This document shows, one piece after another, positions 26,276 through 33,643 of a stretch of 45,301 nucleotides of DNA. Position numbers and translations under genes: made by a program. The stretch is from positions 1 through 45,301 of the forward strand of contig JAILNQ010000121.1 in the NCBI GenBank assembly GCA_024691425.1, in the 5' to 3' direction. How positions within the stretch are numbered: position 1 is the first letter of the stretch; the number at the start of each line of letters is the position of its first letter. The notes beneath the pieces were generated by a model that saw only the letters and a list, made by a program, of their open reading frames with translations, was not told the DNA's origin and searched no databases. Source of the stretch: Lachnospiraceae bacterium (GTDB lineage Bacteria > Bacillota > Clostridia > Lachnospirales > Lachnospiraceae).

Positions 26276-26391
26276 CCGTGACCGTCCAAATGCAAGTCTG
26301 TTATTTTTCGTTATTATATGGTAATCTATTATCATCGAAGAGCGCGATTTCTTCGCTTTTTTTATCGGACAGAAATATCCTTTGGTGTTTT

Positions 26392-28740
26392 ATGAAAGAT
26401 ACTGACAGAAAAAACGAACCGGAAAAAATCGATTTTGTGATCAAAATCTGCATATGCGCCTGCATTCTGTTTACGATCATCATTTTCGTATACGGACAGT
26501 TCTTTGTTAAGAACGCATCATTATATGCCAATGAATGCGAACCTTATGATGCCGTATGGACATACACGGATCCTTCCGGCTTCACCGGGCAGTACAGAAC
26601 AGGTGAAGGGATCGACGTAAAAGATGTTGATGATGTCCGGGTATCGATGACGTTGCCTGATGAGCTCGGAGACGGAAACTGCTTATTCATTCTGACCGGC
26701 AAGGACCTTGACGCATATATCGATGGAGAACTGCGGAACAGCTACAGACTGAGCTATTCTGTTTTCGGCCGGAACGTCAAGGGAATGTGGGTTCCGATCA
26801 CCCTGCGCAGAAATGATGCAGGCAAGGAGCTTACGTTGATCCGCCCGAATTACTGGCTGGATGAATTTTACTTCGGTGAAGTCTACATCGGAAACCGCCT
26901 CGGCTTTGCCATGACACTCATAGACAATAACCTCTTTCTTCTTTTCCTGGGATTTGCGGTCATCACCTTAAGCACGGTTATTTCCTTCATATGCCTCGTA
27001 TACAGGATAATGAAAAGACGGGCTTTTCCGCTATGGTATCTTGGCATCGGGGTTCTCGGTTCCGCTATCTGGCTTCTGCTCGATAATCTTACGTATCCGC
27101 TTATTTTCCAGAATTATTTTGTTGACGGTATAGCGGAATACCTCGTCATCATGATCATTCCGTTCCCCTTTGCGGCATATATAAACAGTCTTCTTGAAGA
27201 CCGCTACCGGAAGTTCTATATCCCGTTATGCTTCCTTATCATCGCAAATTTCGTCATCCAGGCTGCGCTCCACTTTTTCGGGATTGCAGATTTTGTCGAT
27301 ACAATGCTGATAAATGATACCGTCATCGGCATTGTCGCCGTATTCTGTTTCGGAATTCTGCTATACGATACTTTCTTCCAAGGTCACAGAAAGAATATGT
27401 TCATAACGATAGGCTTCAGCCTTTTTTCCCTTCTATGCATAGCAGAGATCATTCATGTGAATGTCCCCGTCCATACTAATGACGGCGCCTTTGTTGCAGT
27501 AGGGCTGATGATCCTGCTTATCGTTGCCGTATCCCATGAAATAAAAAATATCAGCGACCTTCGGGCAATATCTCTCGAGGCTCAGAGCGCGAACCAGGCA
27601 AAAACAACTTTCCTCGCCAATATGAGCCACGAGATCCGTACTCCCATAAATGCGATACTTGGCATGGATGAACTGATACTGCGTGAAAACGCGGATCCCA
27701 AGGTCAAGGAATACGCTCAGAATATCAAAAGCGCAGGAACGGCTCTGCTCGAAATAATAAGTGACGTTCTCGATTTTTCCAAGATCGAGCAGGGCAAGAT
27801 GGATATCATTGATGCCGAATATGACAGCACCGTTCTCATCAGCAGCATCATCACGATGATAAGCGTTAAAGCAGATGAGAAAGGACTTGATTTTGAAAAG
27901 AATATTTCAGAATCACTTCCGTCAAAGCTCATCGGAGATGAGAAACGGCTCCGTGAAGTCATGATCAATCTGCTCAACAATGCAGTTAAATACACCCCGA
28001 AAGGAAAAGTCACCTTCACGGTCAGCCACACTATTATCGATGATGATCATATCGATATGTTCATATCCGTAAAGGATACCGGCATTGGAATAAAAGAAAG
28101 CGACAAAGACAGGCTCTTCAAGCAGTTTGAACGCCTTGATTACAACAAGACGAAATCCATTGAAGGCACGGGACTCGGACTTGCCATAACAGCTAATCTC
28201 GTCAGGCTCATGGGCGGTGAGATAGACTGTATGAGCACGTACGGGGAAGGCACTGAATTCTCTGTCCATATTCCTCAGGCAGTAACTGATTCCTCTCCTA
28301 TAGGCAGCATAAGCTCATATAGCAATACCGCAGCAGATTCCGGCGAAGAGCTTTCAGATCTGAGCGGTATAAGTGTTCTCGTTGTCGATGACAGCAAGAT
28401 GAATCTTAAGGTCGCAAAAGGCCTTCTCGGAGTATTAAAAGCCGATGTCACTATATGCGCAAGCGGTGCAGAAATGCTGGATCTTATCACAGAAAAGAAA
28501 TATGATGTTATACTTCTCGATCACATGATGCCCAATATGGACGGCATAGAAACGCTTGAAAAATCAAGGACTCTTGAGGGAAATCTGAACGAAGACACTG
28601 CATATATCGCACTGACTGCAAATGCAATAGCCGGCGCCCGGGAAATGTACTTAAGCCACGGATTCGCCGACTATCTGAGCAAGCCTATGAAATTAGAAGT
28701 CCTGTCAGCTGCTATAAAAGCGGTCCTCGACAAAAACTGA
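26392..28740 (+). CDS. 7TM hybrid sensor histidine kinase/response regulator
   Basis: From ATG at 26392 the protein is 782 aa; an upstream GTG-initiated extension is hydrophobic but lacks a ribosome binding site. One membrane helix (about 14-36) leads to an outer beta-rich domain (about 40-170), then seven membrane helices (about 180-380), resembling a 7TMR-DISM receptor. HisKA follows, with FLANMSHEIRTPINA, then HATPase (NLLNNAVKY, DTGIGI, GTGLGLA) and a receiver with DVILLDHMMPNMDG as phosphoacceptor site. It probably detects an extracellular carbohydrate-like ligand, by analogy with DISM domains. It is convergent with the BMP gene with 5 bp between stops. Confidence 0.87.
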   Translation: MKDTDRKNEPEKIDFVIKICICACILFTIIIFVYGQFFVKNASLYANECEPYDAVWTYTDPSGFTGQYRTGEGIDVKDVDDVRVSMTLPDELGDGNCLFILTGKDLDAYIDGELRNSYRLSYSVFGRNVKGMWVPITLRRNDAGKELTLIRPNYWLDEFYFGEVYIGNRLGFAMTLIDNNLFLLFLGFAVITLSTVISFICLVYRIMKRRAFPLWYLGIGVLGSAIWLLLDNLTYPLIFQNYFVDGIAEYLVIMIIPFPFAAYINSLLEDRYRKFYIPLCFLIIANFVIQAALHFFGIADFVDTMLINDTVIGIVAVFCFGILLYDTFFQGHRKNMFITIGFSLFSLLCIAEIIHVNVPVHTNDGAFVAVGLMILLIVAVSHEIKNISDLRAISLEAQSANQAKTTFLANMSHEIRTPINAILGMDELILRENADPKVKEYAQNIKSAGTALLEIISDVLDFSKIEQGKMDIIDAEYDSTVLISSIITMISVKADEKGLDFEKNISESLPSKLIGDEKRLREVMINLLNNAVKYTPKGKVTFTVSHTIIDDDHIDMFISVKDTGIGIKESDKDRLFKQFERLDYNKTKSIEGTGLGLAITANLVRLMGGEIDCMSTYGEGTEFSVHIPQAVTDSSPIGSISSYSNTAADSGEELSDLSGISVLVVDDSKMNLKVAKGLLGVLKADVTICASGAEMLDLITEKKYDVILLDHMMPNMDGIETLEKSRTLEGNLNEDTAYIALTANAIAGAREMYLSHGFADYLSKPMKLEVLSAAIKAVLDKN

Positions 28741-28745
28741 TCCAT

Positions 28746-29942
28746 TTACTGTTCTATTGTTATGATATCCGTAAGTATGTAATGGAACAGAGGATATGAC
28801 GTTTTTTCATTTTCTTTATATCCGTTCTTCAGATCGATCTTATCGGAAGGATCATCCGGATCAACCCCTGTATAGTTTCCCTTGAAAACAAAATCACCGT
28901 TTCCGCGTTTGAACTGATCTATCGCTTTTTTCATGGCGGCTTCTGTCCCGGGTGCCGCAGCCTGCTGGTTCAGGTCGAGCATCTCAACCCATCCTTTTTC
29001 AAATCCGGCAGACACGTCCGTCCCATGAATCCGCCCGGTAACTATTTTTTCAATCTTCCTGTTAGCCATCACCGCATCAACAGCCTCAGTAACATAAAGT
29101 TCCCAGCAGATTCTTGATGTTACAAGAGAGGAACTGGGAGCCACCTCCGACATGCTCTGATTGTAGCCGATGAAATATACTTCTTTTTTCTTTTCGAATG
29201 CCTCCTCGCATGCTATGGCCGGACCTATCGTATCGGTATGCTGGGAAATGACCACGCATCCCTTATCTATGAGCCTTTCAGCCGCGCTCTTTTCCTGGGC
29301 ATAGCTGCTCCAGGTATTCGTGTAGCACACATGCATCACTGCCTGCGGAACTATCGAGCGGACGCCCAGCAGAAACGCCGTATAACCTGAAATGACTTCC
29401 GGTGTCGGAAATGCAGCTACAAAACCGACTATAGCCTGATCTTCCGAAATGATCTCTTGAGTGATCATCTGTCTGATCTTCATTCCCGCTGCTATTCCGC
29501 TGACGTAACGTCCCTGATACGCTTCGCCTTTGAATGTATGGTAATTCTCCGGAACCGATTGATTGCTCATGTCCATAAAGGAAGTCTGGCAGAATTCAGT
29601 GTTGGGATATTCCGGAGCCAGCCTTCTTACAAACTCGCTGTATCCATTGAAGAATATGATGTCGCATCCCTGATCTGCAAGTTCCCTTAATGGTTCTTCC
29701 ATCTCATCATCTAAAACGTTGCTGCGTGTGAGTATTTCCGCCCGCTCTCCGTATTTCTTTTCAACTGCATCCTTTGCAATGGAAAAGTTGTACGTATAAG
29801 GCGTGCTTTCATCATTATCATATATGAATCCGACTTTAACGCTATCCTTTCCGCCGGAGAGATTCAGAACACGGAAAACGCCAAGAAGGATAGCCATGAT
29901 GACCAGACAGGTTGCAGTTGTGATCAAATATACCCGTTTCAT
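28746..29942 (-). CDS. TM-anchored BMP/PnrA-type ligand-binding protein
   Basis: The 398-aa protein has an N-terminal membrane helix (about 5-26) and a periplasmic-binding-protein fold of the BMP family, which in known members binds purine nucleosides. Landmarks are KVGFIYDNDES, GCDIIFFNG, the long YQGRYVSGIAAGM block and GFVAAFPTPEVISGY. It lacks the usual lipobox and keeps an uncleaved-looking anchor. No ABC permease or ATPase genes adjoin it. Its ATG overlaps the stop of the HD-GYP fusion gene (ATGA), so it is probably a co-receptor for that protein rather than part of a transporter. That role is inference. Confidence 0.8.
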   Translation of the reverse strand: MKRVYLITTATCLVIMAILLGVFRVLNLSGGKDSVKVGFIYDNDESTPYTYNFSIAKDAVEKKYGERAEILTRSNVLDDEMEEPLRELADQGCDIIFFNGYSEFVRRLAPEYPNTEFCQTSFMDMSNQSVPENYHTFKGEAYQGRYVSGIAAGMKIRQMITQEIISEDQAIVGFVAAFPTPEVISGYTAFLLGVRSIVPQAVMHVCYTNTWSSYAQEKSAAERLIDKGCVVISQHTDTIGPAIACEEAFEKKKEVYFIGYNQSMSEVAPSSSLVTSRICWELYVTEAVDAVMANRKIEKIVTGRIHGTDVSAGFEKGWVEMLDLNQQAAAPGTEAAMKKAIDQFKRGNGDFVFKGNYTGVDPDDPSDKIDLKNGYKENEKTSYPLFHYILTDIITIEQ

Positions 29943-32900
29943 GCCTTATCTCCCTTCTCATCAGTATTTACTTCCGGTTTATCTTCCGATCCGTCAGCTG
30001 CAGCCGCAGCTTCATCTCCTGTACCCTTTCCCTCATTCTGCATTTCGGCAGCCTGTATCTTCTTATCTTCCTGGACACGGCGCGCAAGCTCTTCCTGAGC
30101 CTCTTTGTCCGCATTATCGATTTCAGCTCTCTTCTGGGCATATATCTCATCCAAGTTGATCGCGCCTCTCTCGACCAGACGTAAAAATGCATCAAGCGCT
30201 TCGGGATCGAACTGTGTCCCGCGTCCGCGTTTCATCTCATTCATTACATAATCCGTATCCATATGGTGACGGTAAACTCTGTTAGACGTCATCGCATCAA
30301 AAGCATCCGCAACGCCGATGATCCTGCCGAACAGAGGAATCTCATCTCCTTTGAGTCCATCCGGATATCCGCGACCGTCATATCGTTCATGGTGATAACG
30401 TGTTCCATCCACGACATTCTCAACGAGCGTGAAATCCTTCAGTATTTCAGCACCGCTTATAACATGCGATTTCATTTTTGCATATTCATCATCAGTAAGA
30501 CGCCCGACCTTGTTAAGGACGCTGTCAGGAATGGCTATCTTTCCGATGTCATGCATCTGTGCGGCTTTACGCAGGTTGGAGATCATTTTTTTACGGTTCC
30601 ACCATTTGAAACAGTTCATCTCCTGGGCAATAAGCTCCGAATACTCCGCCACACGCAGAGAATGCTGATGCGTACGCACGTCCTTGGCATCGACTGCGTT
30701 TGCAATAGCCATGACTGTTTCATTAGCCATATTGATTTTTATCTGCTGCTGGTTGAGCTGTCTCTGGACAACCATCCAGGTAAACCAGATGATGATCGAA
30801 GAAAAAAGCAGAAGCAGGTAAGTAGTGAAACCGGGACGTTCGTAGAATTCTCCTTCCTTTATCAGTTCGAATTTCCGCTCCTCTAAAACCTTTTCTCCGG
30901 CGCTGTCAAATATTGCCAGACGGAAAGTGTAATCTCCGGCAGGAAGGTTAACACGGACGATACTGTTCAGGCTGTTCTGCGGGACCTTCGTCCACTGCGG
31001 ATCAATCCCCTCAAGCTTATAGCCGACATTAGGCTCCTGGATCGTATAGTTCAATATCTCAGGGTTGAGTTCCACACGGCTGACACCCTGTCCGACGATA
31101 ATGGCTCCCGTCCTGGAAATCGGCTGCTTCACGTCATCAAGCACTACTGATGCCAGCTGCATACGGTAGGAACGGACTTCGCTGTTGTATTTATCGACAT
31201 CTATGATATAGACTCCTGTATCGCACGGAAGAAACAGCTCTTTTCTGCCGTTGTAATAGTTCCACGAATTGGCGGTAAGAGAAGTACCTAAGCCTCTGCG
31301 GGCATCGAGAAGTTCCCATGCCATTTCTCCCCCCTCTACAAGTTCATCCCTTTCCACAACATATATTCCGGCACTGGACATAACGAACAGAGTATCCTCG
31401 TCCTTAACCCAGATATCATAGTTATTGAAGTACGGGAATTTATCCAGAACCCTTATGGTACCTTCAGGCTCAAGATAGCACAGGCTATTGCTGGTGACGA
31501 TGAAAACTCCATCAGACTTAGGATCTTGTACTGTACGCAATATGACGCCGCTGCTGAGACCGTCGTCTCTTGTCAGCATGTCAACTACCTTCCAGTCTTT
31601 AAGGATGGCGATTCCGTCACCATCAGTTCCCGCCAGGATCGTTCCGTCACTCATCTCCGTTATGGTCAGTATCATTGAGTTGATCAGGCCGTCCTCATTG
31701 CTGATCGTCTTCTCGATCTTATGATTCCGGATAAAGCTGATCCCGGTATCGCCTGCTGCCATGATCGTTCCGTCCGAAAGACCGACAACTACACGTGCGC
31801 GGTTTCCGAAACTGCCGCTGTCCGCATTGTATACCCACGATTCCCCATCAGGAGAGAATTCCATCAGTCCGTTGCCATATGTGCACACCCACAGATGATC
31901 ATCATCATCAACATACATGCAGCGGATACGTTTTTCATCAAGCTCATTGGTAAGTTCGTTTTCAATCTGAATGCGGCATGTTCTGTCCACCACATCAAGT
32001 CCCTTGTCAGTACCGATATAGTAGTTTCCCTGCCAGAAAACGATAGCGTTGACAACACGCCGCTCCATCCCGATCGATCCATATACATCAGTGAAGGGGG
32101 ATTTTGCCAGTCTCAGAAGACCGAGTCTTGATGATGTGAACCAGAGGTTGCCCTGATAGTCATAAAGCATATTATCTATGGAATTGTTGAAATCATTCGT
32201 GTTCACGCGATGATAACCTTCAGAATCGATATAGGATACACCGCTGTCGGTGGATATGAACAGCGTTCCATCGCTTAAGAAATTCAGGTTATTGATACAG
32301 GTGACATCTTCACAGGTTATTGTATCGACAAGTTCGAAGTCCTCATCGGATATGTCATAGCAGTAAATGTGATCGGTGGATGAGCCCACCATCAGTTTTC
32401 CATCGGGAGCAAAAGCGCAGCAGTTGAACAGTTCCTCTTCACCCGGCAGCTGAAGCCTGCTTATTATCTCACCCTTCTTCAGAAGGAAGAGTCTTCCATC
32501 GGAGGAGATCGTAGCAACATGTCCGTTCTCATCGGCCGTTATGCTATCGGCATAGTTTATCTCATCCAATGTATTTGCTGCTTTAAGGCCGTTGTTCATT
32601 ACCAGCATATGCATGCTTCCGGTAGTTCCGATATAATAAATCCCGTCCGTAGCACGTATGATGCATCGGACGGAGTTCGAAGGAAGACCGCTGGACTGAT
32701 CAATGACATTAACGACCTTTTCGCGGATAACAATAGACAGACCGTTATCATTCGTCCCGACCCAAAGACGGCCTTCTTCATCAACATAAAGGCAGTTGAC
32801 GTTTTTGACGGATTCATAATTGTCCACCCAGTGGAACTCCCGTCCGTTGTACCGGTAAAGCCCGGCATATGTTCCGATCCAGAGTACACCGTCGTTTGTC

Positions 32901-33643
32901 TGGGCAATGTCGTTTGCCTCACCGCACGGCAGACCGTTGTTGCTGCTGTATACGCTCTGAACATAGTCATTGTAGTCTATCGTTTCCGATGAAGCCGTTT
33001 CAGCCTTGGCAGTCAAAGGCATCGACAGAGAAAGCACAAGGCAGAGAATAACGGCACCCGCAGTTTCTCCAAGGTGCATCGCTTTTTCATTTTCATCTTT
33101 ATCTCGTCGCCAACGTCGTACAAGGAAAACAATGTAAATAGCTGCGATAGTAAGAACCTTGTCAGCAAACTCGATCGCGAGCTGTCCTGAAATGTAGCTT
33201 AAAATGACCGGCCAGTTCCTGCTCTGAAGATAAGCTATAACTCCATCACCCCATACGTTTCCCGTAAGGCCTTTATTGAAAATAATGTTCTGCGGAACAG
33301 ACACTGCAAGTGCCGTAAGCATTGTCAGAGTAGCGGCTTTCATGAATCCGAAAAACTGATCGAACCAGTTGCGTTTTGTTGCGATTCCCACGATGATGCC
33401 CAATGCGATATTGGTAATGGCATATACTGCCGAAAGATGATTGACCGCACTGTATGCCAGGTTTGCGGTCATGCCCACTATCGCACCGCAGATCGGACCG
33501 GCTATGAACGCGCATAGCGCCGTGCCGAAAGAGTCGGCCCATATCGGAAGCTCCAGCCAGTCGGCCAGAAGTTTTCCTCCTATGTTCAGGCATACGCATA
33601 TCGAAGTGAACAGAACTATCTGCCAGTTTTTCCAGTTTTTCAT
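29939..33643 (-). CDS. ECF-S-like membrane domain / beta-propeller / Y_Y_Y / HD-GYP fusion protein
   Basis: The 1234-aa protein begins with about five to six membrane helices (1-175) resembling an ECF-transporter substrate-binding S component. A further hydrophobic stretch at 195-214 ends in AKAET, like a signal peptide site. An outer two-component-type Reg_prop beta-propeller follows (about 225-800; repeats such as DGVLWIGTYAGLYRYNG and EGRLWVGTNDNGL), then a Y_Y_Y domain (about 825-930), a membrane helix (939-960) and an HD-GYP domain with H1031-D1032 in MHDIGK, HHERYDG and GYP at 1092-1094. The tail is charged and alanine-rich. It should break down c-di-GMP in response to an outer ligand. 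It is coupled to the BMP gene. Confidence 0.8.
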   Translation of the reverse strand: MKNWKNWQIVLFTSICVCLNIGGKLLADWLELPIWADSFGTALCAFIAGPICGAIVGMTANLAYSAVNHLSAVYAITNIALGIIVGIATKRNWFDQFFGFMKAATLTMLTALAVSVPQNIIFNKGLTGNVWGDGVIAYLQSRNWPVILSYISGQLAIEFADKVLTIAAIYIVFLVRRWRRDKDENEKAMHLGETAGAVILCLVLSLSMPLTAKAETASSETIDYNDYVQSVYSSNNGLPCGEANDIAQTNDGVLWIGTYAGLYRYNGREFHWVDNYESVKNVNCLYVDEEGRLWVGTNDNGLSIVIREKVVNVIDQSSGLPSNSVRCIIRATDGIYYIGTTGSMHMLVMNNGLKAANTLDEINYADSITADENGHVATISSDGRLFLLKKGEIISRLQLPGEEELFNCCAFAPDGKLMVGSSTDHIYCYDISDEDFELVDTITCEDVTCINNLNFLSDGTLFISTDSGVSYIDSEGYHRVNTNDFNNSIDNMLYDYQGNLWFTSSRLGLLRLAKSPFTDVYGSIGMERRVVNAIVFWQGNYYIGTDKGLDVVDRTCRIQIENELTNELDEKRIRCMYVDDDDHLWVCTYGNGLMEFSPDGESWVYNADSGSFGNRARVVVGLSDGTIMAAGDTGISFIRNHKIEKTISNEDGLINSMILTITEMSDGTILAGTDGDGIAILKDWKVVDMLTRDDGLSSGVILRTVQDPKSDGVFIVTSNSLCYLEPEGTIRVLDKFPYFNNYDIWVKDEDTLFVMSSAGIYVVERDELVEGGEMAWELLDARRGLGTSLTANSWNYYNGRKELFLPCDTGVYIIDVDKYNSEVRSYRMQLASVVLDDVKQPISRTGAIIVGQGVSRVELNPEILNYTIQEPNVGYKLEGIDPQWTKVPQNSLNSIVRVNLPAGDYTFRLAIFDSAGEKVLEERKFELIKEGEFYERPGFTTYLLLLFSSIIIWFTWMVVQRQLNQQQIKINMANETVMAIANAVDAKDVRTHQHSLRVAEYSELIAQEMNCFKWWNRKKMISNLRKAAQMHDIGKIAIPDSVLNKVGRLTDDEYAKMKSHVISGAEILKDFTLVENVVDGTRYHHERYDGRGYPDGLKGDEIPLFGRIIGVADAFDAMTSNRVYRHHMDTDYVMNEMKRGRGTQFDPEALDAFLRLVERGAINLDEIYAQKRAEIDNADKEAQEELARRVQEDKKIQAAEMQNEGKGTGDEAAAAADGSEDKPEVNTDEKGDKA

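Follow-up and report, generated by a model that had tools for sequence, protein, structure and literature searches.

A candidate nucleoside or purine receptor unit built from an S-component-fold/propeller/HD-GYP protein and a BMP-family protein in Lachnospiraceae

To our knowledge, the input signals of HD-GYP enzymes are seldom known, and the gene discussed here raises the question of what such a protein perceives when its HD-GYP domain is joined to both an outer propeller and a membrane domain related to transporter subunits. The gene (29939..33643, minus strand, an open reading frame (ORF) of 1234 amino acids (aa) with an ATG start) lies in a stretch of 45,301 nucleotides, hereafter the window, from contig JAILNQ010000121.1 of a Lachnospiraceae bacterium with a draft genome of 2.56 Mb. 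The answer that appears somewhat better than evenly probable is that the protein forms, together with the BMP/PnrA-type binding protein encoded immediately downstream, a two-gene receptor unit that detects a nucleoside or purine base outside the cell and the output of which would be the breakdown of cyclic diguanylate (c-di-GMP).

The receptor, its output and its coupled binding protein

Six parts follow one another in the 1234-residue ORF (all coordinates on the minus strand): a six-helix domain of the S-component fold, similar to the CD3073 family of energy-coupling factor (ECF) transporter S components (residues 1-186, 33086..33643; NCBIfam, AlphaFold model, Foldseek); a putative internal signal-peptide-like segment (residues 195-214, 33002..33061; sequence and family pattern); a two-component regulator propeller of Reg_prop repeats (residues 222-860, 31064..32980; Pfam, PDB sequence matches, secondary structure); a Y_Y_Y domain (residues 874-925, 30869..31024; Pfam); a single membrane helix that leads into a long signaling helix (residues 937-960, 30764..30835; sequence, and secondary structure from a full-length model with pLDDT 67.5 and pTM 0.38, which served for this purpose only); and an HD-GYP domain (residues 981-1148, 30200..30703; Pfam, alignment with 4mcw, a 24-row alignment). 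The preliminary description of this DNA had named the same succession of membrane bundle, propeller, Y_Y_Y domain, membrane helix and HD-GYP domain, which is confirmed by Pfam, NCBIfam, the alignments and the models; it omitted the signal-peptide-like segment (there residues 194-214) and missed the overlapping, coupled BMP gene.

The Pfam matches of the HD-GYP domain are strong (HD_5, 127.1 bits with a gathering cut-off of 27.2; HD, 80.3 with 22). Its motif residues align with those of the solved enzyme 4mcw, and H994, H1031, D1032, K1035, H1060, H1084, H1085, D1089, G1092-Y1093-P1094 and D1113 are invariant in the 24 rows; the Glu located four residues before the first His in 4mcw, which we take to be a metal ligand, is Arg in the window protein. 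At the sequence level, then, the domain appears intact, as had been claimed, with no sign of the inactive form that would have spoken against an enzymatic role, and the family together with the motif residues supports c-di-GMP breakdown as its predicted output.

The outer part is likewise recognized by Pfam (Reg_prop, 80.1 bits with a gathering cut-off of 20.4; Y_Y_Y, 29.8 with 26.6), and at E<=1e-4 the propeller matches four distinct solved sequences, all of them two-component sensor kinases (4a2l, 3v9f, 3ott and 3va6). The earlier statement that propeller/Y_Y_Y modules normally feed histidine kinases is nonetheless too narrow because Reg_prop/Y_Y_Y sensors with a GGDEF domain have been published (PMC6637768; papers are cited by PubMed Central number).

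The partner gene (28746..29942, minus strand), identified by Pfam, PDB sequence matches and its conserved position beside the receptor, overlaps the receptor stop codon by 4 bases. Its product matches PF02608 (Bmp) with 93.7 bits (cut-off 24.1) and carries an N-terminal anchor helix without a lipobox. Relatives of receptor residues 1-300 number 360 in named genome contigs; the best 80 of these, referred to below as the named loci, are 64-72% identical and come from records mostly titled Lachnospiraceae or Butyrivibrio, many of them from ruminants, with a minority titled Clostridia, Oscillospiraceae, Ruminococcaceae, Christensenellaceae or Eubacterium. A BMP gene is found downstream on the same strand in 74 of the 80 named loci, and the other six contigs stop inside the receptor gene, i.e., the pair is present in 74 of 74 testable cases. 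The other neighbors in the window do not travel along: at more than 45% identity, the M13 peptidase is present in 0 of 80 loci and the hybrid histidine kinase, which is encoded on the opposite strand just past the BMP gene (26278-28740, plus strand), in four. There are no ABC (ATP-binding cassette) transporter genes beside the window BMP gene, the neighbors of which are the receptor and this kinase. An Rfam scan of the whole window gives zero matches that reach the gathering threshold.

The association extends beyond the closest relatives. A receptor copy that is at least 63% identical is present in 22 of 36 genomes of the same genus (pieces at contig ends included), and the receptor-BMP pair is kept in 12 of 13 further genera (G038, G044, G184, G234 and eight more), so that the search for this architecture in other clostridia, proposed with the preliminary description, finds it within the genus and outside it. 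The S domain is present in all eight further-genus receptors that were fetched in more length. Starting from the BMP protein, a search of 120 family genomes (one per genus) finds proteins at 45% identity or above in 12. The own genome is one of these; of the other 11, 10 have upstream DNA, and all 10 encode a propeller and an HD-GYP domain there, the 11th starting at a contig end. Among the weaker BMP relatives (36-43% identity), 18 of which were examined as loci, an ABC ATPase is encoded alongside in 17. A lax lipobox-like motif is found in 15 of 17 transporter-type BMP ORFs drawn, versus 15 of 73 receptor-type rows. No BMP neighbor was found within 1.5-kb flanks of five propeller/HD-GYP receptors without an S domain (L033-L037), nor at four S-domain fusions with other outputs (L041-L044).

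The solved sequences closest to the partner BMP are AtzT (6pi5, E 2e-26) and 3s99. According to PMC6834077, AtzT was purified with guanine (dissociation constant 110 nM), with Tyr45 and Trp194 sandwiching the base and Glu165, Ser97, Asn218 and Asn220 holding it, and 3s99 was modeled with adenine. In the alignment, for which the shift of the AtzT numbering was deduced in this analysis, Tyr45, Trp194 and Glu165 correspond to Y49, W211 and E182 of the window BMP. Y49, E182, W211 and D237 are present in 73 of 73 receptor-type rows and H235 in 71 (the window protein is counted twice among these rows, and two transporter-type rows are excluded). The partner BMP is thus predicted to carry a conserved purine-type site. 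In the own genome, the gene of the nearest BMP paralog (35% identity) is the first of an ABC operon, after which comes xanthine phosphoribosyltransferase; another BMP gene lies between those for cytidine deaminase and purine nucleoside phosphorylase.

The propeller could also be taken as the primary sensor, in which case it would bind a glycan as in the hybrid two-component systems of gut Bacteroides, and the BMP and the S domain would be auxiliary or scavenging parts. All four solved propeller matches belong to sensor kinases, and such kinases are linked to polysaccharides in gut Bacteroides; moreover, the rumen is named as the source in many record titles of the relatives, and rumen bacteria of this kind live on plant fiber. 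This explanation appears unlikely given that the BMP gene is coupled to the receptor in all testable named loci and in other genera; variation of the flanking genes among the loci drawn points the same way, although this is a weak argument.

The S-component-fold domain and its relatives

The NCBIfam profile NF045596 (ECF_S_CD3073) matches residues 11-172 of the receptor with an E-value of 1.3e-16 and 60.8 bits, which is under the 180-bit cut-off of that model; the Pfam ECF_trnsprt profile (PF12822) is not significant (E 0.59). An AlphaFold model of residues 1-223 built from 46 sequences (mean pLDDT 88.8, pTM 0.80) is a confident S-component fold with six helices. A Foldseek search of the PDB with this model ranks chains titled as S components (TmRibU, RibU, ThiT, BioY) at positions 1-9, the top match being 5kc4 (TmRibU) with a probability of 1.00, a TM-score of 0.69 by target length and an E-value of 5.6e-3, so that none of the PDB matches reaches E<=0.001. 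At rank 10 stands a chain of the ECF PanT transporter, followed at rank 11 by 4huq_S, which bears only the title 'a transporter' and, as we assume, belongs to an ECF transporter; from rank 12 onward the probability is 0.26 or lower, FolT at rank 30 excepted. At the sequence level, the S-domain profile has RibU as its sole match among PDB sequences (E 0.8) and provides no support there. The claim of an ECF-S-like N-terminus is thus upheld by the NCBIfam match and by the S components that head the fold matches.

Generic membrane sensors were the stated alternative for this region; Pfam and NCBIfam give no 5TMR or MASE match, and PF07694 (5TMR) has none even at E<=1. In the model, the extra helix H0 is absent, the first helix (residues 6-30) opening the six-helix set, and the loop between helices 1 and 2 (residues 30-39) contains no NXR motif. 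The domain therefore falls outside the known 5TMR receptors that share its fold. The earlier analogy to vitamin transporters holds as far as the S-component kinship goes but stops short of what the evidence indicates, namely nucleosides or purines.

A 14-row profile of the S domain yields 59 matches at E<=1e-6 in 47 of 291 genomes of the class. The 40 stretches fetched hold 41 of these matches and include 34 free-standing S components and six fusions; outside this set are four matches in the own genome, seven fusions about 700 aa long, five free forms from a single genus and two short matches. Neighboring genes were assigned by BLAST to seeds, the families of which were checked with profiles; in L180 and L203, the S component itself was not drawn by the gene caller. 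A nucleoside hydrolase or phosphorylase is encoded in the fetched stretch at 13 of the 34 free-standing loci, and EcfT at six, five of which are among these 13; five of the 34 stretches have no nucleoside enzyme, EcfT, TudS-related or ion-channel gene. The CD3073-family S components that adjoin TudS-related genes (family CD3072 for one) are those of L177, L180, L185-L187, L189-L191 and L194, and in this subgroup the neighborhood hints that the substrate may be a thio-base or thionucleoside. Those that adjoin an ion-channel gene (family PF00520 in L164) are found in L184, L188, L196, L199, L202 and L203.

In a tree of 67 S domains, the 20 propeller fusions form a single group (support 97/73), the sister of which (node 95/87) consists of two free S components, L172 and L173. 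Both are flanked by a gene of the uridine/purine phosphorylase family on one side and by EcfT and EcfA on the other. The best match of these phosphorylases is uridine phosphorylase, below the cut-off, and because of this the S domain and the BMP need not see the same compound. Fourteen other fusions, mainly of an S domain and HD-GYP, form a separate group (100/98); the inner branching order is unsure because some fusion rows have long branches.

The fused relatives are diverse in their outputs. The protein L043:4439-8425 (genome G038) contains the S domain, propeller and Y_Y_Y followed by a stretch in which a GGDEF motif is recognizable by eye, and might represent the same sensor with the opposite, c-di-GMP-making output. 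In L041:3858-7646 and L042:4489-8277, the S domain, propeller and Y_Y_Y are followed by a kinase-like stretch, which by eye seems to have no phospho-accepting His, and by a receiver-like end. L044:4982-8851 (G040) has the S domain, propeller and HD-GYP in one chain that ends in a receiver-like stretch. The own genome encodes two gene pairs, L039:5159-11556 (contig C88) and L040:3046-9382 (C85), in each of which an S domain + HD-GYP protein of about 700 aa adjoins a propeller/Y_Y_Y hybrid kinase of about 1400 aa.

The conservation pattern bears on what the S domain does in the receptor. In S components, an AXXXA motif in helix 1 serves docking to EcfT (PMC11109136). The window domain has S14-x-x-x-C18 at the positions taken as equivalent, which are assumed docking positions picked from the alignment in this analysis, and thus lacks AXXXA. 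Both positions carry small residues in 64 of the 84 fusions that make up the window's own group and in one of 14 propeller fusions outside it, and the strict form [AGS]xxx[AGS] is found in nine of the 84 and in one of the 14; among the six EcfT-linked free S components, none has the strict form and all six have small residues if Pro is included. Residues N20, P33, D37, G40, D161 and K162 are almost invariant in the fused proteins and in the free groups linked to EcfT, nucleoside enzymes or TudS, with lower conservation in the remaining free groups. Since the polar core (N20, D37, D161 and K162) is largely common to fused and free forms and the helix-1 pattern is uneven, the S domain resembles a nucleoside-type S component that has given up transport or is in the course of doing so.

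It seems quite improbable that the S domain is no more than a passive anchor in the membrane, a remnant of a gene fusion. Residues 1-223 are less conserved (54-65% identity among 46 sequences) than residues 1-1170 (73-79% among 24 sequences), as such an anchor might be, but the near-universal retention of the six residues in the groups named, the confident fold model and the presence of the domain in all eight receptors fetched from further genera argue against this possibility. Least probable is a transceptor in which the S domain would still dock on EcfT and import a nucleoside, with uptake coupled to signaling: one EcfT-family gene is present elsewhere in the host genome, the sister S components adjoin EcfT and EcfA, and small helix-1 residues prevail in the window's own group, but the strict pair is rare in that group and the small pair nearly absent from propeller fusions outside it.

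The linker and the proposed mode of action

After the sixth helix of the S domain, the window protein has basic residues, a short hydrophobic stretch and then P-L-T-A-K-A|E-T, with a putative signal peptidase I site following A214. Because this segment sits between the S domain and the propeller, the chain may be cut in two at the linker; the earlier description of the parts as fused is accurate for the gene, and the protein has its S domain set apart from the receptor by a potentially cleavable segment. Around their first polar residue, 96 linkers most often read P (47), A (37) or V (20), K (29) or R (26), A (56) and E (27), and the pattern [AVS]-polar-A occurs in 76 of the 96, versus 21.5 expected from shuffling (the L130 receptor, the linker of which was not located, was left out, and most rows are near relatives and not independent). 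A first, lax cleavage-motif test is passed by 83 of 86 linkers (88 given, two not located) and, in the larger set, by 91 of 96 versus 70.7 expected from shuffling the same residues; this test is too permissive for linkers so rich in Ala. In its controls, six of 74 BMP anchors (75 given) pass versus 7.3 expected, most anchors having F-R-L at the corresponding place, and seven of 14 helices that follow the S domain in other fusions pass versus 5.9 expected. By the same lax test, such a peptide stands at the N-terminus of all seven related receptors that lack an S domain (five HD-GYP proteins and two hybrid kinases), and therefore the window gene has the appearance of an S-component gene fused to an entire gene for a receptor of the secreted type. 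An internal translation start ahead of the segment, which would yield two proteins without cleavage, was considered and not adopted as the start is not conserved: an in-frame ATG is found in 36 of 80 genes versus 39% of 2446 background windows, and an ATG with a Shine-Dalgarno-like stretch in 12 of 80 (15%) versus 6% of these windows, a small excess.

In the two-gene receptor unit proposed here, the BMP, tethered at the outer face of the membrane, would bind a purine-type ligand and, once loaded, dock on the outer propeller/Y_Y_Y part. The S domain, a relative of subunits of likely nucleoside ECF transporters, could serve as a second ligand-binding part or as an assembly part within the membrane; the linker would probably be cut by signal peptidase I, so that S subunit and receptor would be made 1:1. 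Docking would alter the geometry of the membrane helix and switch the HD-GYP dimer, changing c-di-GMP, activation being assumed. The family of the output is assigned; we infer the ligand, the cleavage and the direction of signaling. A more detailed and more tentative version, which we consider possible but clearly less probable than the receptor unit as such, is a polyprotein receptor: a single chain of nucleoside S component (ECF type), internal signal peptide and propeller/HD-GYP receptor would be cleaved by signal peptidase into S subunit and receptor at 1:1, and these would join the purine-binding BMP, itself membrane-tethered and translationally coupled, in a surface sensor of three parts that sets c-di-GMP. 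If so, one receptor would have recruited its ligand-binding parts from both the ECF and the ABC kind of nucleoside uptake system.

Several observations weigh against a nucleoside or purine receptor unit. In the BMP site, AtzT Asn218 and Asn220 are replaced by H235 and D237 (His and Asp as in 3s99), Asn169 corresponds to Gly, and Ser97-Phe98 falls in an alignment gap. Xanthine phosphoribosyltransferase is encoded near only four of 18 wider transporter-type loci (within the fetched stretch, the own genome's locus not counted), and NCBIfam, with scores under the cut-off, assigns the name 'putative B6' to BMP and ABC relatives. No nucleoside enzyme is seen near 21 of the 34 free S components, nine of the 34 have a TudS-related gene and six an ion-channel gene. 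A gene for a binding protein may adjoin a receptor gene without encoding its partner (PMC11113362), and G045, the exception among the 13 further genera, carries the receptor with no BMP at E<=1e-20. Finally, 'no lipobox' fails for the receptor-type BMPs as a whole: the anchor helix of 15 of the 73 (L087, L075, L064, L093 and others) contains a lipobox-like motif, and the mode of anchoring may therefore vary among relatives.

The candidate ligands named by the receptor unit, purines and nucleosides, are testable with one small soluble protein, and the linker offers a testable case of an internal signal peptide that splits a bacterial receptor. If the proposal is correct, the cell may read extracellular nucleic-acid building blocks and change its lifestyle.

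Comparison with known systems

Receptors that use a separate binding protein encoded alongside are exemplified by LuxP-LuxQ and TorT-TorS. The window unit resembles these in that the binding-protein gene adjoins the receptor gene, and differs in its membrane-tethered BMP, propeller sensor and HD-GYP output. Full-text literature searches, judged by titles and the starts of abstracts and with most subscription journals outside their coverage, found neither a description of an S-component/propeller/HD-GYP protein nor a substrate for the CD3073 family. Within the available literature, the assembly of S domain, propeller, HD-GYP and BMP is new, whereas receptors of the S fold (PMC11109136), Reg_prop/Y_Y_Y proteins of c-di-GMP turnover (PMC6637768) and dCache-type purine control (PMC11245519) are already known.

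The 5TMR-LYT receptors (BtsS, YpdA) employ the S-component fold as a receptor part, with outputs that include GGDEF and EAL (PMC11109136). The window receptor likewise joins this fold to a signaling output; unlike in those receptors, the domain is a CD3073-type ECF-S without PF07694, H0 and NXR, and the receptor part follows a signal-peptide-like segment and is mostly extracellular. The link between transporters and receptors described in that paper would thus be extended to a second sequence family, for which free-standing, transporter-type relatives are available for comparison. With the Reg_prop/Y_Y_Y GGDEF proteins GdpX2 and GdpX3 of Xanthomonas oryzae (PMC6637768) and with propeller sensor kinases such as 4a2l, the window receptor shares the outer propeller and Y_Y_Y domain, and it is distinguished by the HD-GYP output, the S domain ahead and the BMP gene after. 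The partner shares the BMP/PnrA family and the purine-sandwiching residues with AtzT (6pi5) and 3s99, and unlike these is anchored without a lipobox, has no adjoining ABC transporter and is encoded by a gene that overlaps that of a receptor.

The closest functional parallel would be the dCache_1PU purine sensors, which control c-di-GMP, the tested case being a cyclase (PMC11245519). Like those, the window unit would link an extracellular purine derivative to c-di-GMP turnover, and in Lachnospiraceae, many of them from the rumen, different parts would then do a dCache-like job, the dCache_1PU sensor domain being unrelated and binding its ligand directly.

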